From contig NZ_CP047569.1 in NCBI RefSeq assembly GCF_009903625.1, positions 3,202,501-3,266,500 on the forward strand: a DNA stretch of 64,000 bases. The letters run 5' to 3'. The position numbers and the translations under genes are program-made. The notes under the pieces are model-generated. The model saw nothing but the letters and a program-made list of their open reading frames with translations, searched no databases and was not told where the DNA came from. Shown here one piece after another: positions 2,262 through 13,119 of this stretch (positions are counted from its first letter, which is position 1; each line of letters opens with the position of its first letter). This DNA comes from Microbulbifer sp. ALW1 (GTDB lineage: Bacteria > Pseudomonadota > Gammaproteobacteria > Pseudomonadales > Cellvibrionaceae).

Positions 2262-3299
2262 TCAATCGATCTGGCGGCGAGCCTCATTAGACCGGTGGGT
2301 GAGCGGCTCACGCACCCGGCTTACCTGATCGCGCTTGTCCGTTTTCTTTTTGGGCTTCTTTTCCTTTTTCTTTTTCTTTGGTTGTTCGCTCTTTGGTTTC
2401 TCGCTCTCAGGTTCCTCGTTCTTTGGTTGCTTGCCCTTCTGGGGCGGAGCTGGCTTCGCGGCAGTATTGCGCCGATCTTTAGGCGCATTGCGCTGGGGCT
2501 GGCCGCGCTGGGTTTGCGGTTTGGGCCTTTCGCTTACCGTGCGCCGATCAGTTGCCGGACGCTCTACTGCAGGAACAACTCTTGGGACGCGATTGCCGGT
2601 GGGCTTGTCCGCAACTTTGACTACCCGCTCGTCCCGACTTGGATTCTGACGTGGATTCGGGCGTTCATTACGGCGATCCTCTCTCCGGTTATCTAGGCTC
2701 CGGTTATCTAGGCTCCGGTTATCCACCTGAGACGCCCGCCGCTTTGACTCGGCTGTACGAGCAAATCCATGTTCACCGCCTCGGCCACGATCCAGGTCCT
2801 GCCCACGACGATCCTGGCGTTCCTCACGGCGATCATGTCGATTCCCGTTGCCTTCATGCCGCTCCCGCCGGTTGTAACCGTCGTCATGATCGTGCCGGCG
2901 TGGCGGTCTGTAGTCGCGTCCTCCGGCATAGCGATGGCCGTGACGGCGCAAGCGCGTATGCCAGCGATCATTGAAGTTTGTCGAGATATAGAAATTGGGG
3001 GCCGGATACCAACGGCCACCCCAGTGACTGGCACTGATCCAGTGGTCCTGATACCAACGATAGTAACGCCCCTGTCGATAGAAAACGTCGCTGCGGTCGT
3101 AGAATACGTAAACACCGAGGGTATCGTCATAGTAGCGATAGCCGGGATCGGTGATCACTGTATAGGAGTAAACCGGAGGCGCCTTGCGGACATAGGTGCC
3201 CCCGCCGATCACCGGCGGAGCTGCTGGGTAGGTGACACAGCCACCGAGCGTCAAAGCGATGGTGAGAGCGGCGAGTAATCGGTATGGGACCTGGCGCAT
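2262..3299 (-). CDS. Arg-rich putative lipoprotein
   Basis: A 345-residue protein with a lipoprotein signal peptide: basic start MRQVPYRLL, hydrophobic stretch, then the lipobox LGGC at about 18-21. The ATG has AAGGAAAA upstream. Residues 40-130 are rich in Tyr, Trp and Arg (RYYRWYQDHWISASHWGGRW), with repeated aromatic motifs. From about 130 on the chain is low-complexity: Arg/Asp/Asn-rich, then Pro/Lys/Glu-rich (KKKKKEKKPKKKTDKRDQ). A DNRSL unit is tandemly repeated. It is probably anchored in the outer membrane with a disordered, charged tail. The function is unknown; similar basic envelope proteins occur in many gammaproteobacteria. Confidence 0.7.
   Translation of the reverse strand: MRQVPYRLLAALTIALTLGGCVTYPAAPPVIGGGTYVRKAPPVYSYTVITDPGYRYYDDTLGVYVFYDRSDVFYRQGRYYRWYQDHWISASHWGGRWYPAPNFYISTNFNDRWHTRLRRHGHRYAGGRDYRPPRRHDHDDGYNRRERHEGNGNRHDRREERQDRRGQDLDRGRGGEHGFARTAESKRRASQVDNRSLDNRSLDNRREDRRNERPNPRQNPSRDERVVKVADKPTGNRVPRVVPAVERPATDRRTVSERPKPQTQRGQPQRNAPKDRRNTAAKPAPPQKGKQPKNEEPESEKPKSEQPKKKKKEKKPKKKTDKRDQVSRVREPLTHRSNEARRQID
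2683..2724. repeat. 15-bp tandem repeat inside the lipoprotein gene
   Basis: CTCCGGTTATCTAGG occurs at 2683-2697 and 2698-2712, followed by a third partial copy from 2713. On the coding (minus) strand each unit encodes five residues (DNRSL), so copy-number change would keep the frame. Confidence 0.8.
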
Positions 3300-3439
3300 G
3301 GTGCGTTTTCCTTGGATTCACACCTGCTTTTTAACCCGCCGCAACTGAATCGACCCTGAATTTACTCGCAAAAGAACAGAGACAACCAATGTTCACGGCA
3401 AAGTGATGCGCACCCAGCCCAGCGCCCTGCCCCGCAGTT

Positions 3440-3737
3440 CCCGGCGCCGATACTACCGGCTGAAGTAACGCACATAAATACGCCCAAGGGCCGGCATCAC
3501 CTTGCTTACACCCTGATCAGACCACGGAGTTACCAGTAGGTGCAGGTGATTGGTCATCAACACCCAGGTATGTACCTGAATTTCGAACTCCTTGGCAAAC
3601 TGTTTTAGTCAACCGGCGTAGGCGATCATGTCCTGCCCTGAACAGAAGCACACCTGCCGGTTGTTGACCCTCTGTATGACATGCTGCGGAACCCCTGCCG
3701 GTCCGAGGCGAGGCTATCTGGCCATCGAGTTTTCCAT
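3440..3737 (-). pseudogene. REP-associated (Y1) transposase remnant
   Basis: Reading the minus strand from an ATG at 3737 gives a recognisable N-terminal half of a REP-associated tyrosine transposase: GPAGVPQHVIQRVNNRQ, then VHTWVLMTNHLHLLVTPW with the HLH metal-binding motif, then MPALGRIYVRYFSR. In-frame stops interrupt it: TAG after the eighth codon, TGA where the family usually has Trp after YAG, and TAG at 3453-3455. Beyond this the expected catalytic-Tyr region is absent. It is thus a decayed, inactive copy. An intact but divergent member lies at 5964. Confidence 0.75.
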
Positions 3738-4149
3738 TACCTTTTTGCCATGACCTTAGACTAATGGATGGAGAAGTCAGTGGATGCTAATGGGTGTCAC
3801 AATGTTGATCTGCCTCCATTTATTCTGACGACGCAGCCTCACCCCCCGGTAATGTCGAAAACTACAAATGCGTGTCGCTTCTCATTGTCAGTAGGCACTA
3901 CCTCGACATGCAGCTCCCCGGCACCGAATACGTACTTGCAGCCATCAAGCCGACTACAAAGTCATATTTTCAATTTGGAAATTTGAATTAATTCTCACCG
4001 ACTATAAAGTGTGATTTCGAAATTTTCGAAATTGCCAACAAGTATTTCTAAACTATGAATTTAGGAAGAATCGCGAAATTAGCTCACATACCAATTTATG
4101 GTTTTACGGAGAAGCTCCAACCCAAAAACCAACAAAGTGGAAAATATCT
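3738..4149. other. AT-rich intergenic stretch
   Basis: No gene is seen. A 72-codon frame at 3768 has no recognisable content. TTGATCTGCCTCCATT at 3805-3820 matches the repeat core seen at 1524 and 5840. From about 3960 the sequence becomes markedly A+T-rich, with poly-A/T tracts and near-direct repeats of GAAATTTTCGAAATT type, plausibly the promoter region of the orphan gene at 4150. Confidence 0.4.
3805..3820 (+). repeat. RAYT-associated repeat core
   Basis: TTGATCTGCCTCCATT lies about 70 bases beyond the 5' end of the transposase remnant. It differs from the copy at 5840-5855 (TTAATCTGCCCCCATT) at two positions and resembles the arm at 1524-1539. No full palindrome is left here. Confidence 0.45.
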
Positions 4150-5712
4150 ATGCCGAAATATGAATTGAAAAAAACAGAAGAAAATGAAATAAGTGTATTT
4201 TCATTTTCCGGCACTGCAAAAGGAAAGTTTGACGAAACCCATATTGTTGGCTCTGAAGTTGTGCGCGGAACCCCTTCAGAAGAAGCAAAAGATCGAGCTA
4301 GAAGAGTCCGCAATATAGTGGAACTGGTTGACCCCAAAAACCTATCTACTGACTCAATCCGCTTTATACTGGATGGCCTGCGAAATGTGAGCAAGGGTGA
4401 CCGCCTAACAGACGAAGAACTCAGGGAGTTTCGAGATCACATTCGCATTGAATCTGACCGCATTGAAAAAATCAAAGAAAAAGAAGACGTCGACTACCAA
4501 CTTGGAACAGTACAGCTGCCAGATTTAACTGAAGGAATTGCAGGCATTTCCCCTATCGTTCTATCTGGATGGTGGCAACAGGGCCTTGAATTTCAAGAGC
4601 GGAATTGCAGATGGTCGCTATTAAGCAGAACCAGTAAGCATTTCATTGAGATCCTTAGCATCAATTACGATGAGTCAAAAGAAAATTTGACCTCTTATAG
4701 GATTACAGAAACGCAAACCACCCGATTGGTAGAAGAAATAAAAAGGATTATAAGATACAACCTAAGCTCATCGATTACTCTGGAAAGCTTGGGAATTACG
4801 TCTACCGCAAGCCTGGATTCTGAAGCGGTCCACAATAAAATTACTGAACGAGTAACCAACCTGCATTATGTACTGGTCGTTACTCATATAACCTTGAAAG
4901 TCACACTAAGGATGCGCAGACGAATAGACTACCAAGAAACTTGGGGCTGGGCTGGCGAAGATTGTCCGATGAGTACTTATGTGCCTGAACGACGTTCTTA
5001 TTCGCTCTACGGGGATATTCGCTCTTATGAATTCACCCACGAGGCAGATTATTTTCTACTTCGTCAGGATCTGGAGCACGCTAATGAGGTCACAGAAGAG
5101 TACTGGTGGAAACGCTCCAAAGATGACTTTCTTGACCGGCTAGGACGTTCATTCGGGCGTCCCACAAATCCCGGTGGCCCTCCGCGTGTTCCGCCTTGGA
5201 TGCCTGAACTGCCCTGGCCTCCCAATGCGCCGCCGACCACACCGGCTATTGCATCAACTTTGACAGCAGCGACCGGTAGCTCCCCCACCTCCATCACAGG
5301 AGGAAATCAGGAAGATTGCTTTCTTCAATCCAGACTTCTGGTTGAGGTTAGCGGTTATATGGACCCGGCAAAACGTGTCAGCATTGATTTCACTATCGAA
5401 TCATCTGGCGATACATTGCAACGCCGAAACAACCAACGAGTTGTATTGAATAACCCGCCCAATCCAGTGCAACGTAGATTTGATAGAGTAAGTATCACCG
5501 TACCGGAAGGGTGTATTCAGGGGTTCACTCTAACCTACAAATTCAAAATCAGAATCGAAGATGAACATAACAACTCAATTGATACCAAAGAGCACTCATT
5601 GGATATCTACTTACCACAATGCCAGGGATCCACGGAACAAGACGAAACTGTAAAAATGAACTACGGAGACATAAAATTGACCCTAACCCTCAACAATATG
5701 AGTTGCCTCTAA
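4150..5712 (+). CDS. Orphan protein of unknown function
   Basis: A 520-residue protein that I do not recognise. It has no signal peptide and no membrane helix. Residues 1-150 are charged and mostly helical. Residues 165-310 look like an alpha/beta or beta-rich domain with several Trp (GWWQQGLEFQERNCRW). A Pro-rich linker at about 345-370 (PGGPPRVPPWMPELPWPP) separates a C-terminal beta-rich domain of about 150 residues with scattered Cys. The gene is clearly more A+T-rich than the surrounding backbone, which points to recent transfer. It stands alone, with no co-directional neighbour in contact. It could be a structural, carrier or defence-related protein; I cannot choose. Confidence 0.6.
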   Translation: MPKYELKKTEENEISVFSFSGTAKGKFDETHIVGSEVVRGTPSEEAKDRARRVRNIVELVDPKNLSTDSIRFILDGLRNVSKGDRLTDEELREFRDHIRIESDRIEKIKEKEDVDYQLGTVQLPDLTEGIAGISPIVLSGWWQQGLEFQERNCRWSLLSRTSKHFIEILSINYDESKENLTSYRITETQTTRLVEEIKRIIRYNLSSSITLESLGITSTASLDSEAVHNKITERVTNLHYVLVVTHITLKVTLRMRRRIDYQETWGWAGEDCPMSTYVPERRSYSLYGDIRSYEFTHEADYFLLRQDLEHANEVTEEYWWKRSKDDFLDRLGRSFGRPTNPGGPPRVPPWMPELPWPPNAPPTTPAIASTLTAATGSSPTSITGGNQEDCFLQSRLLVEVSGYMDPAKRVSIDFTIESSGDTLQRRNNQRVVLNNPPNPVQRRFDRVSITVPEGCIQGFTLTYKFKIRIEDEHNNSIDTKEHSLDIYLPQCQGSTEQDETVKMNYGDIKLTLTLNNMSCL

Positions 5713-5963
5713 TCTTTGGTAGTTCAGACTTGACCTGACAGTTACCGGTTTTCAGAAAATGGATACCCAGCCCAGCCCATTGCAGCCATAGACGGACCAG
5801 AAATACTCGCCCGGATCGCGGCACTACCAATAGGTGGACTTAATCTGCCCCCATTCGATAACAATGGGACCCCCAAAGAAGAAAAGGCATCCTACGCCAA
5901 ACACTTGCATTTAACATAATTCATCGAAAAATACTGGCTATATATACAGCATCATTAATAGCC
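5713..5963. other. Short gap with degenerate RAYT-linked repeats
   Basis: No gene is seen. ACCCAGCCCAGC near 5766 matches the sequence beside the transposase remnant near 3412, and TTAATCTGCCCCCATT at 5840-5855 matches the repeat core at 3805. These shared pieces probably belong to the element that carries the transposase starting at 5964. Confidence 0.4.
5840..5855 (+). repeat. RAYT-associated repeat core
   Basis: TTAATCTGCCCCCATT, about 110 bases upstream of the intact transposase. Compare TTGATCTGCCTCCATT at 3805 and TTGATCTGGCCCCTTT at 1524. Confidence 0.45.
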
Positions 5964-6956
5964 ATGACCCAACCGCGATCAAACCTGATTGATCCAAGTA
6001 CAACGCCCTACTATCACTGCGTTTCCCGCTGTGTACGCCGCGCTTTTCTTTGCGGGCGTGATGAGCGCACCGGGCAGTGCTTTGAGCACCGTCGACAATG
6101 GATAGAAGACCGGCTGCTGAAACTTTCCGGAATATTCGCCCTGGATGTTTGTTCGTATGCCGTCATGAGCAACCATTATCATGTCGTGTTATTCGTGAAC
6201 CAGCAACAGGCTGACGGTTGGGACCTGCTAGAGGTGGTGTCTCGATGGCATCGGCTGTGCAAAGGCTCTGCCTTATCGCAGCGTTTTTACCGTGGGGAGC
6301 CCCTGGATTCTGCCGAACTTGCACGACTGTCTGAGGTAGCCAAAATCTGGAAGACACGGCTGAGTGATATCAGTTGGTTTATGCGCTACTTGAACGAGTT
6401 TATTGCACGGGAATCCAATCGCGAAGACCAGTGTAGCGGGCGATTCTGGGAGGGCCGTTTTAAATCCCAAGCATTACTGGACGAAAAGGTCCTGGCAGCC
6501 TGTATGGCTTATGTCGACCTTAATCCAATCCGCGCGAAAATGGCCGAAACCCCAGAGACATCGGACCATACCTCAATCAAGCAACGTATCCTCTCTGCAA
6601 AACAGGCACAGCAGCCCACCACGCTGCTGCCTTTTGTCGGGAATCCCAAAGAACCCATGCCTACAGGCCTACCGTTTCGGCTAGAGGACTATATTGAATT
6701 GGTGGACTGGAGCGGACGCTGCCTACGAGAAGATAAGCGGGGAGCAATCAACGAAAAACTTCCTCCCATTCTCGATCGCCTGCAAATTGATCCAAAGCAA
6801 TGGACCTATCTGAATAGAAATTTTGAAAGCCGGTTTAAATCCCTGGTAGGCACTGGCCATTCTGTACGCACCGCTTGCGAGCAATTTGGCAAGCGCTGGG
6901 TGCACGGAATTCGCGAGTGCGAACGGCTCTTGTCATCACCTCCCGCAATACCTTAA
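5964..6956 (+). CDS. REP-associated tyrosine transposase (Y1 family)
   Basis: A 330-residue single-strand DNA transposase of the IS200/REP-associated type. Known relatives cut and join palindromic repeats through a tyrosine. The N-terminal Y1 domain starts with YYHCVSRCVRRAFLCG. The metal-binding HYH is at 71-73 (SNHYHVV), and the catalytic tyrosine is probably Y183 in ACMAYVDLNPIRA. RFWEGRFKSQALL is also typical. A C-terminal extension of about 100 residues is usual for this long subtype. The gene is intact, unlike the remnant at 3440, and has repeat-like sequences upstream. No Shine-Dalgarno is obvious. Confidence 0.85.
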   Translation: MTQPRSNLIDPSTTPYYHCVSRCVRRAFLCGRDERTGQCFEHRRQWIEDRLLKLSGIFALDVCSYAVMSNHYHVVLFVNQQQADGWDLLEVVSRWHRLCKGSALSQRFYRGEPLDSAELARLSEVAKIWKTRLSDISWFMRYLNEFIARESNREDQCSGRFWEGRFKSQALLDEKVLAACMAYVDLNPIRAKMAETPETSDHTSIKQRILSAKQAQQPTTLLPFVGNPKEPMPTGLPFRLEDYIELVDWSGRCLREDKRGAINEKLPPILDRLQIDPKQWTYLNRNFESRFKSLVGTGHSVRTACEQFGKRWVHGIRECERLLSSPPAIP

Positions 6957-7164
6957 CCCCTACTCTCTCCACCCTTTGAATTGCATCGCAGGTCAGCTGC
7001 GAGCGTACACTTCGTGTGCGGCCCACCCAATCATACGGAATGCGTGATAAAAACCACACGAGCCTGCCCTTCCAACAATGACTTCTTGCGCGCAAGCAAA
7101 AATACTCGTGACGGACGTTTTCTGCTGTTAGGCACTATTTGTGGGTGTCCTTTTTATTTTGTCA

Positions 7165-8034
7165 TCAAACTGCCGAACTCACAGCCTCAGAAAAATCAGG
7201 ACTTTCAGAAAGCGCCTTCATCAAAACCACGCGCCAGTGATTCAACCCATACAACTGCTCCTCGGACGATAAGCACTGCTGTATAAACCCACTAATGTTA
7301 TCTCCCCCGTTTTTAAGATGGCTAACGCAAACATTAAATACCTCTGATATTTCATCGCTTGCCAATTCGTTATATGTATCCACCAAATTTAATCGCTCAT
7401 AGTGTGCAGACAAAACGCTCCAAACACCGTCCAAAATACCGGCAGGTCTTTGGATCGAAAAGATTGCTCCTACAGCATTTATGCCCGTCCTAGTCTGCAA
7501 GCTCACCATCAAATATTGACTTTCAGGTATTTGATCACTATAAAAATGCAAGTAAACTCGATTTACAGCATTCTTCCAGTTGCTACTTTTTGTCTGATTG
7601 CAATCCGCACAGCAAGGCACCAGGTTTAACACATGGACCGACAACTCCGGAAATTTTGATTCTGGAAGGTAATGATCATAAGTTTTTGGAAGAGTAACCC
7701 CACAATAAGGGCATCGCTTTAAAAGCCTTTTCGGCTGAGTCCCCTCTATCAACGTAAAAATCTCTTTAAGTTTAGCTGTACGACCTTTATAACAGCTCAA
7801 CAAATCATCTTTATGCAGTGCTAGTGAATGGTCTTCTTGAAAATCAAACAATAAGTTTTGCCGCACTGCTTGTTCGAATAAATCATATCGACTAAGGATT
7901 TGCCCCTCCAAGCTCAAAAGATTAACTTTTGTTTCATTCACCTCCCCTTTTATTGTGTTATTTTTCGCATTAACAACATCTTTATGTCTTTGCGAGTATG
8001 GAACATTGGATGAAGGGACTTCTAATTTTCTCAT
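7165..8034 (-). CDS. ptuB: HNH endonuclease, Septu PtuB-like
   Basis: A 289-residue protein with a central HNH nuclease domain. C108/C111 (RCPYCG) and C142/C145 (CADC) form two CxxC zinc knuckles. D120-H121 (TYDHYLPESKFPE) is the catalytic start, N137 lies in VLNLVPCC and N146 follows CADC. The order CPYC, DHYLPxSxxPE, NLVPCC, CN is the one I know from HNH partners of defence ATPases such as PtuB of Septu and of retron-linked PtuAB. Its ATG overlaps the stop of the upstream ATPase by four bases, so the two are translationally coupled. The likely role is cutting of nucleic acid under control of the ATPase during phage infection. The symbol rests on domain pairing, not on alignment. Confidence 0.65.
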   Translation of the reverse strand: MRKLEVPSSNVPYSQRHKDVVNAKNNTIKGEVNETKVNLLSLEGQILSRYDLFEQAVRQNLLFDFQEDHSLALHKDDLLSCYKGRTAKLKEIFTLIEGTQPKRLLKRCPYCGVTLPKTYDHYLPESKFPELSVHVLNLVPCCADCNQTKSSNWKNAVNRVYLHFYSDQIPESQYLMVSLQTRTGINAVGAIFSIQRPAGILDGVWSVLSAHYERLNLVDTYNELASDEISEVFNVCVSHLKNGGDNISGFIQQCLSSEEQLYGLNHWRVVLMKALSESPDFSEAVSSAV

Positions 8035-9479
8035 CTTTCACTACCATACTGCGCCAACAAATATGCTTTAGCGTTAAAACTTAGGCCGCTATCAAATAAT
8101 TTATCTACAGCCTCAGGTGTATATTTTTTTGCGAGTCTTTTTAATACGCTTTTATAGTGATTATTTATTGAAACCGTATCAAAAACATGCTTAGTTAACT
8201 CGGAGATACTCTCACCAAAAGTTTCAAAGCTCATCAATGAAGAAATAGTACTATTCCCCTCACGGGTTAATAGAATTACTCTTTTTCTAGGGATTTCCTG
8301 GATAACAATTGGCGAATGCGTAGCAATAATTGCAAACGAATTGTACTTCTTTAGCATTTTATTCATAACATTAAATAAATGCGCTACAGCATTTGGATGC
8401 AAGTGCGTTTCTGGCTCATCAAATAGAACCAGTGTGTTTTCTTGAATCCGCGCAACAAGCGCCGTTACGAAATGAGCCAAAATTGATTGACCTGAACTCA
8501 TCAAAGACAATGCATCACTATCAATTTTTGAATCAACTTCACGCTCAAGTTTAGAAATAAATTTACCACTTGTATCGTCCAGAATTTCAGACATAAATGA
8601 AACCCAAGCATCCTCCCTACCTAACTCGACAATTTTAGCCAGATTACTTTTGTAATTTTCCAAAAGCGATGTTTTTGACAGCCCCCCTCTTTCATTCCTA
8701 ATCCCACAGTAGACATAGCTTACCTGAGGGTTTTTAGGCCGTATAAATTTATCAAAAGCACTATAAGAAATTGTTATCACTCGACTAAATATCGGGCGCT
8801 CACCTTCGAACCTTTGATTTTTTTCATCAATCGCTTTCTGTGAAATCCTTCCGACCTGCACCAGATCCTTTGCTAAAGCCGCCATTAGCTGAGTTTTCCC
8901 CACTGCGTTCCGGCCAATTAAACCGACTATCCTTCCAGGTAGAACATCACGCTCATCAAAGTCCACACTTATAGTAAATGGACTATCCGCACCTTCGATA
9001 TGGGCAGTATATTCAAAGGAAAAGTGTTCTGTATATTTTTCGCCCGAAATAATGGAACGACCGAATCTAAATGAACTCCTGGCACCATTTTCTCTAAAAA
9101 GTGCGTTTCTATATGCAGACGCACTCTCAAATGGTTCCGCTTTTATTGGCTTCCATGAAATATCATTTAGCGATTCCAAAACCTCTTCGGACTCTTCACT
9201 GCCAACAGCACTTAGCAGCGACCGATAAAAATCCAAATCTTGCCCCAAACTTATATAAGTCTCACCAAGGTTAGAAAACTCATCAGGTAGATCAGTAACA
9301 TTCTTATCTTTTTGCAAAATTTTAACTGTACCAATCTCTACACTCTCATACTTTGTTTTATGGTAAGTTAGATGGAAACTGCATTTTGTGCCAAAATCAT
9401 CCCAACTGTCGATTGTCAAACTAAAAATAGGATACGTCACCCCAAACAAAGATTCTCTAAATCCTTTAACCTTAAACAT
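8031..9479 (-). CDS. ptuA: AAA/ABC-type defence ATPase, Septu PtuA-like
   Basis: A 482-residue ATPase of the RecF/SMC-like AAA_15/AAA_21 group. Walker A is GRNAVGKT at 189-196, an ABC-like signature SSGQ lies near 327, and Walker B is LVLFDEPETHLHP near 347. A switch-region His follows in IIATHSPIVIQEIP. The 190 residues before Walker A carry a beta-rich N-terminal region and no known fused nuclease. The length fits PtuA. It precedes and overlaps the HNH gene, which is the Septu gene order. There is no reverse transcriptase or structured RNA nearby, so it is not an obvious retron. Other ATPase/HNH pairs exist, so the subtype is uncertain. The A+T-rich composition suggests acquisition by transfer. 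Confidence 0.7.
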   Translation of the reverse strand: MFKVKGFRESLFGVTYPIFSLTIDSWDDFGTKCSFHLTYHKTKYESVEIGTVKILQKDKNVTDLPDEFSNLGETYISLGQDLDFYRSLLSAVGSEESEEVLESLNDISWKPIKAEPFESASAYRNALFRENGARSSFRFGRSIISGEKYTEHFSFEYTAHIEGADSPFTISVDFDERDVLPGRIVGLIGRNAVGKTQLMAALAKDLVQVGRISQKAIDEKNQRFEGERPIFSRVITISYSAFDKFIRPKNPQVSYVYCGIRNERGGLSKTSLLENYKSNLAKIVELGREDAWVSFMSEILDDTSGKFISKLEREVDSKIDSDALSLMSSGQSILAHFVTALVARIQENTLVLFDEPETHLHPNAVAHLFNVMNKMLKKYNSFAIIATHSPIVIQEIPRKRVILLTREGNSTISSLMSFETFGESISELTKHVFDTVSINNHYKSVLKRLAKKYTPEAVDKLFDSGLSFNAKAYLLAQYGSER

Positions 9480-9590
9480 AAGTCTTCAACCTTACAGCTT
9501 TAAAATCATTTATGATGCCCAAAATATTTAGACACGAGACACAATTAATATGAGACGATTTATTTCCGATTTGCTCTAAGAAGCCAGCGC

Positions 9591-11618
9591 TCAAACTGTG
9601 GCACATGCATCAAGTAACTCTACCGCTCCGAATTTAATTAGTGCTTCTGCTGTGGAATCGTAGATCCTGGGATCACGAGAGGGATCTTCTGACGAACCTT
9701 TGGGGACCCATATCACTAGCCCCTCGCGACCCCGGGTCATGAGCACACGATAAGAATTAGTAATGAATCGTTGACGATCAGCGCTAACTCTCGCCCAACT
9801 ATTGCCCCTGAACTGCCTATGCATCCAGGAAGCCCCATTCCATACCAAGTCACCACCCCAGCACAATCCAACGAAATCCAGTTCAAGACCTTGGGCTGTG
9901 TATTCATTAGCAGGTACTTCAAGAGCAAAGGAAGAACGAACATCGCCTCGCTGATTCAAATACCATTGAGCGATTGCGCTTCCGTCAGTGGCATTTAGAG
10001 TAACTCCGAAGCCCTCCGCTCGGAGTCGCCGAGCACCAGAACTTGCGACCAACCCAAATCTGCGCTCTCCTCGCGTTCTTTTCTTCAACCACTTTCGAGC
10101 GGAATCTATAGATCTAGATACGACAATGGGGTAATCGCCGAGCCGAGCTGCCAATTCCCTAGCTTCAGAAACTTTCCCATCCAACACGAACGACACCCAA
10201 CGACTCAACGAAGGGGAACGAAAACTTCGAAGAGGAACGTTCAATTCGAGGTCTGCCTCGACAACGACTTCATCAACACCGGAAAGGCTTCCTGCTCCAA
10301 GATTCGCAGTCGCATCCGACCCGACTAGAAAATCGGGTGGGCCGTAAATCTTCCAGCCAGCAAGCTCAGTAGGCGGTAGCGCCCTCAACGCCTTACCCCA
10401 CTCAGCAATACCATTTTCCCCAACATTGATTTCTTGCCCACCTCCCACCAAGGCGACGATGGAACACCAATCTGGGTGGCGCCCCATAATGTCCAGGAGG
10501 AGCTTTGGCTCCGAGGATGGTCGCCCGAATTTCTTGCGACCGTAATCTTCATCCCAGGCACGTTGAGCTTCGTCAAATACAATCACATGCTCATGAGGTG
10601 CTAAGCCTGAATCATTCGTTAAATATTCACGTAAAAAATCTATAATGTGCTGAATTCGAGTCCTAACCGAATTTCTAGCTTCGGCGAGAGCAGGCTTTTC
10701 TCCTCGCGCCCTTCTTCTCTCGGTCTCATCTCTTGCAAGGGCCTCACGGAGGACTGTCACCAACGGTGTATTTCCGGATAGATAAATAATATCGCCTTGG
10801 TCCTCGACCCCAGTTTCAACTGCGCTATGCACAACCTCTAATCCAGCGAGGGTCTTTCCCGAACCAGGTACACCAGCCAAAAAAACGAGGGAACGCCCCC
10901 CCTTCCGCTTGGTATCCTCAATTATTTCGACCACACGCTTAGCAGTCTCCTTCAAATTCGTCGCATCAGCCTGCGCAATCTCGCGAACGTCATGACCAGT
11001 AAACAATGTTGTTGCTGCGTCGATCACCGTCGGTATTGGACGGTATGGGCCAGATGCCCATTCCCGGATTTGGTATTTTCGTGAGGGACTGGCAGTGGAA
11101 ATACGATCAAGGAATATTCTAAAACCTGATCTTCCAATGCAATGTACATCCGCGACAGCACCTGCATTAATTTCCGGGACATACGCTTCCGTCTCAGCTT
11201 CAGTACACCAAAGTACCGGAATAAGACTTACACCGGAGCTCGCAGCATGAAAATCTCTGAGGTCGAGTGCATACTCTTCAACTTGACGCCGGTCGACAGA
11301 CAGGAATTTTGACTCTCCTACTTTTAGCTCAACCACCAAAATTGCCGCTGGCGCCAAGATCACAACATCTATTCGACGCCTAAGTCGATAAAGTGGATAT
11401 TCGAGAAGAACAGTCCACCCTGCCACATCTGACTGCTGTTCCGACAATGCACGCAACTCACATTGCAGCTTAGGAATGCTCACATTCCATGCTTCAGTCT
11501 GACTCGTATATTGCGACAAAAATCCGTCTGCAGCGTACTTGGCATGCAGCTCAGCGGAGACCGATTCGACTGGAGTTCGAATGAAATCTTCAATACTTGA
11601 TGAATAGTACGATGTCAT
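9591..11618 (-). CDS. DUF2075-type helicase with N-terminal nuclease domain
   Basis: A 675-residue protein. Residues 80-105 (RRRIDVVILAPAAILVVELK) show the D...ExK core of a PD-(D/E)xK nuclease. A P-loop helicase module follows: Walker A GVPGSGKT near 245-252, Walker B VIVFDEAQRAWD near 345, and a C-terminal ANEYTAQGLELDFVGLCWGGD segment with VLMTRGREGLVIWVP, typical of the DUF2075 (Schlafen-like) family. Such proteins are common in defence islands. It is transcribed towards the ptuA-like gene with a gap of 111 bases, so the three genes may be one unit. The nuclease and helicase activities are inferred from motifs. Confidence 0.75.
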   Translation of the reverse strand: MTSYYSSSIEDFIRTPVESVSAELHAKYAADGFLSQYTSQTEAWNVSIPKLQCELRALSEQQSDVAGWTVLLEYPLYRLRRRIDVVILAPAAILVVELKVGESKFLSVDRRQVEEYALDLRDFHAASSGVSLIPVLWCTEAETEAYVPEINAGAVADVHCIGRSGFRIFLDRISTASPSRKYQIREWASGPYRPIPTVIDAATTLFTGHDVREIAQADATNLKETAKRVVEIIEDTKRKGGRSLVFLAGVPGSGKTLAGLEVVHSAVETGVEDQGDIIYLSGNTPLVTVLREALARDETERRRARGEKPALAEARNSVRTRIQHIIDFLREYLTNDSGLAPHEHVIVFDEAQRAWDEDYGRKKFGRPSSEPKLLLDIMGRHPDWCSIVALVGGGQEINVGENGIAEWGKALRALPPTELAGWKIYGPPDFLVGSDATANLGAGSLSGVDEVVVEADLELNVPLRSFRSPSLSRWVSFVLDGKVSEARELAARLGDYPIVVSRSIDSARKWLKKRTRGERRFGLVASSGARRLRAEGFGVTLNATDGSAIAQWYLNQRGDVRSSFALEVPANEYTAQGLELDFVGLCWGGDLVWNGASWMHRQFRGNSWARVSADRQRFITNSYRVLMTRGREGLVIWVPKGSSEDPSRDPRIYDSTAEALIKFGAVELLDACATV

Positions 11619-11844
11619 AACTTCGAAGATTACCAGATTGAATATTGAGCAATATGCGCCTTAATTCTGCTTCAATTTGACGCGATGGGCTTTAGAACTA
11701 ATGACAACCTTAAACCAGTACCCCCTAAGTTTTGAAGCACTAGTTTCCTCTAGTACGGTTAGTCTCAGTGGACCCTTTTGATCCGTTAGAGATCGCCTTT
11801 GCATCGGAGGCGCACAAGTAATAAACAGCACTCTTCGAGCACAA
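11619..11844. other. Boundary between accessory block and core operon
   Basis: No gene is seen. A possible 80-codon minus frame (11661-11903) crosses the terminator hairpin and has no recognisable content. A short inverted pair (ACTAG...CTAGT near 11741-11757) is present. The change in base composition makes this the likely right edge of the acquired region, but I see no integrase and no att-like duplication. Confidence 0.35.
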
Positions 11845-11876
11845 AAAAAGCGAACCCCGCAAGAGGTTCGCTTTTT
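11845..11876. terminator. Bidirectional rho-independent terminator
   Basis: AAAAAGCGAACC at 11845-11856 and GGTTCGCTTTTT at 11865-11876 form a 12-bp perfect stem with an 8-base loop. A- and T-tracts lie on both sides, so it can stop transcription from either strand. It lies about 60 bases after prpF and ends the propionate operon. Confidence 0.85.
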
Positions 11877-11937
11877 CAACTTCCGGAGCAGCTTTAACCG
11901 CACACTCCGCTATTGGCAGTCACTACTGCAAATTGGA

Positions 11938-13119
11938 CTAGAAACTGTCACCGGGCACCCGCACCCAACCTTCCATCAGAATCCGCGCACTGCGACTCAT
12001 AATGGCCTTGGTGGCAGTCCACTGCCCGTTGGCCACTTCCGCTTCCGCGCCAACGCGCAAGGTGCCAGACGGATGGCCGAAAGTCACCGCATTGCGCTCC
12101 CCTCCCCCAGCGGCCAGATTGACCAGGGTGCCGGGAATGGCTGCGGCGGTGCCGATGGCCACCGCAGCGGTGCCCATCATGGCGTGGTGCAGTTTGCCCA
12201 TGGACAGGGCCCGCACCAACAGGTCGATATCCCCTGCTGCCACTTCCTTACCGCTGGAGGCCGCATAGCCCTTGGGTGCCGCGACGAACGCGACCTTGGG
12301 GGTATGCTGGCGAGCGGCTGCCTCTTCCACTTTTTCGATCAGGCCCATGGCCTTCGCACCATAAGCACGAATAGTCTCGAACATGGCCAGGGCCTTGTCG
12401 TCACCGTTGATGGCTTCCTGCAGCTCGGTGCCGGTGTAACCGATATCTGCGGCGTTGACGAAAATGGTCGGGATGCCGGCGTTGATCATGGTGGCTTTCA
12501 GGGTGCCGACGCCGGGCACTTCCAGGTCGTCCACCAGGTTGCCGGTGGGGAACATCGCCCCTTCCCCGTCGGCCGGGTCCATGAATTCGATCTGCACTTC
12601 GGCGGCCGGGAAGGTGACGCCGTCCAGTTCGAAATCACCGGTCTCCTGCACTTCCCCATTGGTGATGGGTACGTGGGCGATGATGGTTTTCTTGATGTTC
12701 GCCTGCCAGATGCGCACGGTGCAGATGCCGTTCACTGGAACACGCGCTGCATCGACAAAACCGCTGTTGATCGCGAAGGCGCCGACGGCGGCGGTGAGGT
12801 TGCCGCAGTTGCCGGACCAGTCCACGAACGGCTTGTCGATGGAGACCTGGCCGAACAGGTAATCCACGTCGTGCTCCGGCTGCTCGCTCTTCGACAGGAT
12901 GACGGTTTTGCTGGTGCTGGAGGTGGCTCCGCCCATGCCGTCGGTCTGCTTGCCGTAGGGATCGGGGCTGCCGATCACCCGCAGCAAGAAGTTGTCGCGC
13001 GCGGCGCCCTGAACTTGTGCGGATTCCGGGAGGTCCTGCAGACGGAAGAACACACCCTTGCTGGTGCCGCCACGCATGTAGGTGGCGGGCACTTTGATCT
13101 GAGGGGCAAAGGTTGTCAT
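11938..13119 (-). CDS. prpF: 2-methylaconitate cis-trans isomerase
   Basis: A 393-residue PrpF. It isomerises the 2-methylaconitate made by AcnD so that the next hydration step of the 2-methylcitrate cycle can proceed. The family hallmark TYMRGGTSKGVFF stands at the N-terminus and the SGNCGN segment (DWSGNCGNLTAAVG) follows, in a diaminopimelate-epimerase fold. The length is typical. Its ATG overlaps the acnD stop by four bases, and in known genomes prpF goes with acnD rather than with prpD, as here. It is the last gene of the operon and is followed by a strong hairpin. Confidence 0.95.
   Translation of the reverse strand: MTTFAPQIKVPATYMRGGTSKGVFFRLQDLPESAQVQGAARDNFLLRVIGSPDPYGKQTDGMGGATSSTSKTVILSKSEQPEHDVDYLFGQVSIDKPFVDWSGNCGNLTAAVGAFAINSGFVDAARVPVNGICTVRIWQANIKKTIIAHVPITNGEVQETGDFELDGVTFPAAEVQIEFMDPADGEGAMFPTGNLVDDLEVPGVGTLKATMINAGIPTIFVNAADIGYTGTELQEAINGDDKALAMFETIRAYGAKAMGLIEKVEEAAARQHTPKVAFVAAPKGYAASSGKEVAAGDIDLLVRALSMGKLHHAMMGTAAVAIGTAAAIPGTLVNLAAGGGERNAVTFGHPSGTLRVGAEAEVANGQWTATKAIMSRSARILMEGWVRVPGDSF

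Follow-up and report, generated by a model that had tools for sequence, protein, structure and literature searches.

Within the chromosome of Microbulbifer sp. ALW1, a 64,000-nucleotide stretch (NZ_CP047569.1, positions 3,202,501 to 3,266,500; hereafter the window, with coordinates counted from its first letter) carried two overlapping genes that encoded an ABC-type ATPase and an HNH endonuclease. By profile, this pair is a member of PDC-M01, a candidate system already listed in PADLOC-DB 2.0.0, and the ea59 and ea31 genes of phage lambda belong to the same two protein families. We propose that the pair was probably a two-gene defence system of the PDC-M01 type, related to Septu and including lambda Ea59-Ea31 among its members. 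PDC-M01 was thus known before as a database candidate, and what is new here is the lambda membership and a spot beside the prpF gene that repeatedly held defence genes.

Both genes were on the minus strand, started with ATG and had open frames. The PDC-M01A-type ATPase gene (8031..9479, 482 residues) preceded the PDC-M01B-type HNH gene (7165..8034, 289 residues), and the four-base overlap between the stop of the former and the start of the latter, noted in the sequence-only reading, read ATGA (8031..8034, minus strand). The motifs named in that reading were all present. The ATPase contained the Walker A motif GRNAVGKT (residues 189-196, 8892..8915, minus strand), the signature SSGQ (328-331), the Walker B and D-loop LFDEPETHLHP (352-362, 8394..8426, minus strand) and the H-loop THSP (387-390). 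It was laid out as an N-terminal extension (about residues 1-150), an ABC ATPase core (about 150-435) and a helical C-terminus. The HNH protein had CPYCG (108-112), DHYLPESKFPE (120-130), N137 and CADCN (142-146), and its zinc and HNH core, from CPYC to CADCN, spanned residues 108-146 (7597..7713, minus strand). When the 2,315 bp of the pair were shuffled base by base 300 times, no stop-to-stop frame of at least 289 residues arose. The sequence was A+T-rich, as had been said, with a G+C content (GC) of 0.38 and 0.40 in the two genes versus 0.63 in the adjoining prpF.

The ATPase/HNH module was real, intact and consistently paired. When 84,980 species genomes were scanned by pattern, 171 relatives could be confirmed, and locus counts were based on the top 80 of them. 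The HNH gene lay directly downstream of the ATPase gene in 77 of these 80 loci; two of the others ended at the contig end and one had no open reading frame (ORF) under translation table 11. An overlap of exactly four bases was found in 34 of the 78 pairs measured, lambda included. Moreover, the identity matrices of the two proteins correlated at 0.93 over 79 loci, a value reached in none of 1000 permutations. For alignments we chose 56 from a list of 120 ATPases, itself drawn from 1,595 that were found among 7,997 scored candidates, and 55 of 84 HNH proteins. The ATPase residues G189, N191, G194, K195, S328, G330, D354 and E355 were invariant in 81 of 81 rows, and H388 was present in 80 (the remaining row had a gap), while other motif letters varied (e.g., T196 in 69 and Q331 in 61 of 81). 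In the HNH protein, C108, C111, H121, N137, C142, C145 and N146 were the same in all 79 rows, which comprised the window, lambda and relatives. Among 525 neighbouring ORFs in 79 loci, no further gene family occurred in more than four loci.

The sequence-only reading had described a Septu-like pair and proposed a profile search, and the best matches in that search came from the candidate defence family PDC-M01. The ATPase matched PDC-M01A best (PDLC04244, E-value 6.8e-141, residues 15-476 of 482) and the HNH protein matched PDC-M01B best (PDLC04266, 4e-63, residues 17-284 of 289). In both proteins by profile, in gene order and in adjacency the pair was like PDC-M01, with no tested feature that differed. 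The Pfam HNH model was also matched (22.2 bits, cut-off 21.4), and the ATPase had matches to AriA in PADLOC and to AAA_21/AAA_15 in Pfam. Since the best 25 of 50 PADLOC matches of the HNH protein were PDC-M01B throughout, no PtuB model scored above about 43 bits. One PADLOC PtuA1 model (PDLC00282) spanned the whole ATPase (1.7e-73, residues 21-474), and the remaining PtuA models among the 25 matches listed had their best stretches within residues 278-453. We infer that PDLC00282 was an Ea59-type model, because lambda Ea59 fitted it far better (5.4e-184 versus 1.7e-73). The NCBIfam cut-offs were widely missed (PtuA 40.2 of 500 bits, PtuB 15.4 of 150 and TIGR02646 13.4 of 52.15); the PtuA and PtuB models of this set describe retron Ec78 effectors, and TIGR02646 was also missed, at 32-43 bits, by the HNH partners of four Septu-type ATPases (L107, L108, L109 and L123). 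Composition, gene order and predicted folds bore out the Septu-like description, but the best profile matches were to PDC-M01. PDC-M01 itself is an unpublished and uncharacterised candidate. An excerpt from a Bacillus cereus survey treated PDC systems as unpublished PADLOC candidates and gave 41 loci that carried the labels Septu and PDC-M01 at once (PMC11811056), and in PMC11758030 the name stood in an annotation table.

Predicted structures placed the pair beside Septu. The ATPase model (predicted local distance difference test score, pLDDT, 85.7) had its best fold matches in PtuA, and the model of the HNH protein (pLDDT 95.6) had a PtuB-like fold with its best matches in PtuB. For each protein the top fold row came from PtuAB effectors of type I-A retrons (Ec78/Eco7 and Ec83; 9o4a, 9u9y), tied with Septu chains. 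However, no reverse transcriptase was found at the spot among five chosen ORFs of at least 100 residues (PADLOC, Pfam and NCBIfam), and no retron RNA matched there in Rfam, which need not contain every retron RNA. A profile of the HNH alignment met only HNH cores among solved sequences, at E-values of at least 0.025 and including RNA-guided nucleases, with no PtuB; so the kinship with PtuB rested on fold, not sequence. A Foldseek search of the ATPase against viral models gave generic ATPases only among the 50 matches listed, with Ea59 absent there.

A difference from Septu was at the N-terminus, which was extended in both window proteins. Residue 1 of the solved Septu PtuA (8ee4) paired with residue 152 of the ATPase model, and residues 43-62 of the retron PtuA paired with 150-151, leaving the extension (residues 1-150, 9030..9479, minus strand) with no counterpart in 8ee4. 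Accordingly, the Walker A lysine was at position 195 in the window ATPase versus 43 in Septu EcB88 and 41 in a PtuA from a related Microbulbifer genome (L188), and the ABC domain did not lie near the N-terminus as it does in PtuA of known function. Some PADLOC models named PtuA are 520-733 positions long, so that this label also covers longer proteins. Within the extension, R129 was conserved in 81 of 81 rows, S77 in 80, and W26, D28 and D106 in 79 each. The sequence-only reading had suggested a new subtype on account of this region: it was indeed unusual, in that family members conserved it while the solved Septu PtuA had nothing to match it, but the type was already in PADLOC as PDC-M01. A largely Bacteroidota group of PDC-M01A (L024-L051 and others) had proteins of about 640 residues with the Walker A motif near residue 345, their N-terminus being longer by about another 150 residues.

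In a quick tree of 57 ATPases, PDC-M01A stood as a group of its own. The rows were the window, lambda, 32 loci out of the 79 on genome contigs that had an ORF, three further PDC-M01A, 11 PtuA (nine of them checked with PADLOC) and nine other ATPases. The 37 PDC-M01A rows, with the window ATPase and Ea59 among them, were split off with a support of 99, and the 11 PtuA rows with 89. However, a constraint that joined PDC-M01A with all PtuA was tolerated (P value of the approximately unbiased test, p-AU, 0.63, with a likelihood 1.9 higher than that of the free tree), and so was one that joined PDC-M01A with the L188 PtuA alone (p-AU 0.36). PDC-M01A may therefore have originated from within PtuA.

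The lambda genes (NC_001416, L002:4935-7399) were arranged like the window pair, with ea59 (525 residues) followed by ea31 (296 residues, annotated as an HNH endonuclease) after a four-base overlap. Ea59 matched PDC-M01A (3.9e-201) and Ea31 matched PDC-M01B (5.8e-113), and PHROGs likewise placed the window ATPase with Ea59 (phrog_8066) and the window HNH protein with Ea31 (phrog_10378). The two pairs differed in that they were only 25% (ATPase) and 23% (HNH) identical, that Ea59 fell in another PDC-M01A subgroup of the tree and that the lambda pair was phage-borne. Among 50,697 phage records searched with tblastn, a relative of the ATPase was found in 25 and over at least 80% of its length in 19, most rows being lambda and its kin; a viral-contig scan with a single ATPase gave no confirmed relative. 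The lambda pair was matched at no less than 99% in 91 of 5,426 complete Escherichia coli genomes, with at least 80% of it in one place in 68. The passages on ea59 available to us concerned deletion constructs, non-essentiality, the label "ATP-dependent endonuclease", a polymerase chain reaction site and one interaction count, and they assigned it no biological role. Thus, an unpublished candidate system was placed structurally beside Septu, with its differences, and was tied to a pair of lambda genes that have long been known but were given no role in those passages beyond that label and non-essentiality.

The genomic context also pointed to defence. The pair was situated in a variable spot (3300..11937) between a gene with a lipobox-like start in its sequence (2262-3299) and prpF (11938-13119), which formed the right flank. 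Among the 40 genomes of the genus that were searched, the window's included, prpF was present in all and the left-flank gene in 23. After removal of the window's own spot and of one with its flanks on different contigs, 21 sibling spots remained (L186-L206), in which the prpF-side interval varied from about 2.7 to 16 kb. The window pair was present in none of them. We scanned a selection of the ORFs in these spots (30 proteins, at least one per spot) and counted a spot if one protein matched at an E-value below 1e-39 over most of the profile, with the unpublished candidate PDC-S06 taken as a defence family. Such near-full-length matches to known or candidate defence families were found in 10 of the 21 spots: PtuA with PtuB (L188), SIR2 with HerA (L189, L192), NsnA/PD-T4-2 (L187, L194, L198), Ppl (L195), Lamassu LmuA with LmuB (L197), PDC-S06 (L200) and Hachiman HamB (L202). 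Two more fell below the count (L186, an ATPase at 8e-29, and L191 at 4e-17). The PtuA-like ATPase of L188 was Septu by PADLOC, and its best solved sequence was PARIS AriA (1.6e-10), followed by Septu PtuA 8ee4 (4.2e-7). As a control, none of ten window ORFs from 19.8-59.3 kb had a near-full-length defence match, and there was one partial match to DpdF (5.7e-17). The prpF-side interval is thus worth searching for defence genes in this genus. The view of the pair as a candidate defence unit, put forward from the sequence, was well supported by its Septu-like composition, order and folds together with the defence genes that recurred in the sibling spots.

The defence reading rested on the intact catalytic residues, the near-universal pairing, the correlated divergence, the similarity in fold to PtuA/PtuB and a location where defence genes abound. 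If PtuAB is a guide, the ATPase would bind ATP through an ABC-type dimer and carry the HNH protein in a complex, in which the nuclease would be kept inactive as long as the cell is uninfected. Some change brought about by the phage, which the N-terminal domain may sense, would then switch the nuclease on; that the extension is a sensor is guessed from how conserved it is. The HNH nuclease would next cut transfer RNA (tRNA) or phage DNA needed by the phage or the cell, and the infection would abort. In view of the literature on PtuAB, Septu and WonAB, abortive cleavage of nucleic acid, either tRNA or DNA, appeared the most likely action. Excerpts from PMC11555353 described depletion of tRNA-Tyr by retron-Eco7 PtuAB, leaving open whether this was direct, a retron-Eco4 PtuAB that probably did not act on tRNA, and a Septu of ATCC 25922 cited as cutting DNA. 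In a passage of PMC13096335, Septu EcB88 was said to cut tRNA-Tyr and to require its Walker and HNH residues. WonAB (PD-T4-4) was like the window pair in combining an ABC ATPase with a nuclease and acts by abortive infection, as predicted for the window pair, and an excerpt modelled it as stopping translation (PMC12137116); it differed in that WonB is a PD-(D/E)xK nuclease, whereas the window partner was HNH by Pfam and fold. OLD, Gabija GajA and PARIS AriA had a related ATPase core with a Toprim nuclease domain or partner, whereas neither window protein matched Toprim (Pfam, E-value of at most 1) and the partner was HNH.

We also considered a bolder form of this model, which we hold tentatively and would rather doubt than assert. 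Here, PDC-M01 would be a separate class of ABC-ATPase-HNH immune complexes, its N-terminal domain (W26, D28, S77, D106 and R129) would be the infection sensor, and ea59-ea31 in the lambda b region would protect lysogens against other phages. The b region that houses these genes is dispensable, and we know of no lysogen-protecting role ascribed to them. If the idea were true, the function of the whole family could be tested through ordinary lambda lysogens.

Several other explanations were weighed, and their probabilities overlapped with that of the PDC-M01-type defence system. The pair may simply be canonical Septu: PtuA and PtuB in a divergent form, assembled as PtuAB is known to be and lacking a sensing step of their own. 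This was compatible with our explanation, and the same order and overlap, the PDLC00282 match, the PtuA/PtuB-like folds, the tolerated joint grouping and the 41 doubly called B. cereus loci spoke for it; we nevertheless considered it unlikely, given the NCBI scores far below cut-off, the Ea59-type look of PDLC00282, the extended N-termini and the separate tree group of PDC-M01A. We regard the pair as probably working like Septu, and do not assign it to Septu. Slightly less probable still was a module by which mobile elements compete (superinfection exclusion or plasmid interference), as opposed to one that defends the cell broadly against phages. Members occurred in phage lambda and, in E. coli C5, next to a recombinase gene; an integrase-like neighbour (judged by eye from the sequence, with no profile) was found in 4 of 79 loci, and relatives of the E. 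coli ATPase were present in 93 plasmid records. However, the plasmid relatives were at most 37% identical among the 30 of 93 listed, the window copy (on a single 4.68-Mb contig) and the C5 copy were chromosomal, and it was anti-phage genes that occupied the window spot in siblings.

An addiction pair resembling a toxin-antitoxin system, in which the ATPase merely restrained a toxic HNH nuclease and defence was incidental, seemed improbable. A nuclease and its partner did form a single overlapping operon, and an excerpt stated that retron-Eco7 PtuAB arrested growth without the retron; however, the proteins singly caused no such arrest (PMC11555353), and simple restraint would not need the invariant catalytic residues of the ATPase. 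Very improbable, finally, was a three-gene system that included the helicase gene upstream of the pair (9591..11618, minus strand). This gene was on the same strand, 111 bases from the pair and in the same spot, but in 79 related loci none of the ORFs found within 6 kb was a relative of this helicase, its GC was 0.50 versus 0.38-0.40 in the pair, and it matched a single-gene candidate of its own, PDC-S41 (PDLC05014, 2.1e-216). It had a Schlafen group 3 helicase domain (PF09848) and a NERD match below the cut-off, and we took it as a separate second candidate defence gene.

The rest of the spot contained a gene for a 520-residue protein (4150-5712, plus strand) with no significant match in Pfam, PADLOC, NCBIfam or PHROGs and, like the helicase gene, absent from all 21 sibling spots. 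It also contained a gene resembling REP-associated tyrosine transposases (5964-6956, plus strand; 39.4 of 80 bits, below the cut-off), which was single-copy in the window genome and recurred at 95% identity in two sibling spots, the copy in L192 (genome G033) being shorter than that in L186 (G020). The neighbouring mobile elements invoked in the sequence-only reading thus came down to this one transposase-like gene, which gave them weak support; the window had no tRNA and there was no integrase among the proteins scanned. A repeat search showed no evident repeats at the insertion ends, a promoter scan gave five sites versus 8.4 expected by chance, and four sub-threshold Rfam matches were taken as chance.

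At an E-value of 1e-12, one PDC-M01B model (PDLC04264) matched 7 of 398 Pseudomonadota genomes, the window genome among them; a few more might be reached with other models of the family. In E. coli, the closest relative (68% DNA identity over 84%) was in strain C5, one of 5,426 genomes, where the pair was chromosomal and adjoined a recombinase gene, with a Drt8 reverse transcriptase and a PDC-S15 gene some 4-6 kb away. The whole C5 island, near setB (L208:10001-21950), held the PDC-M01 pair, two recombinase genes, a Drt8-type and a second reverse transcriptase gene and the PDC-S15 gene. Among the siblings of the window genome, three (G014, G029 and G035; L084, L086 and L087) carried distantly related PDC-M01 pairs outside the prpF spot, and that of L084 grouped with lambda Ea59.
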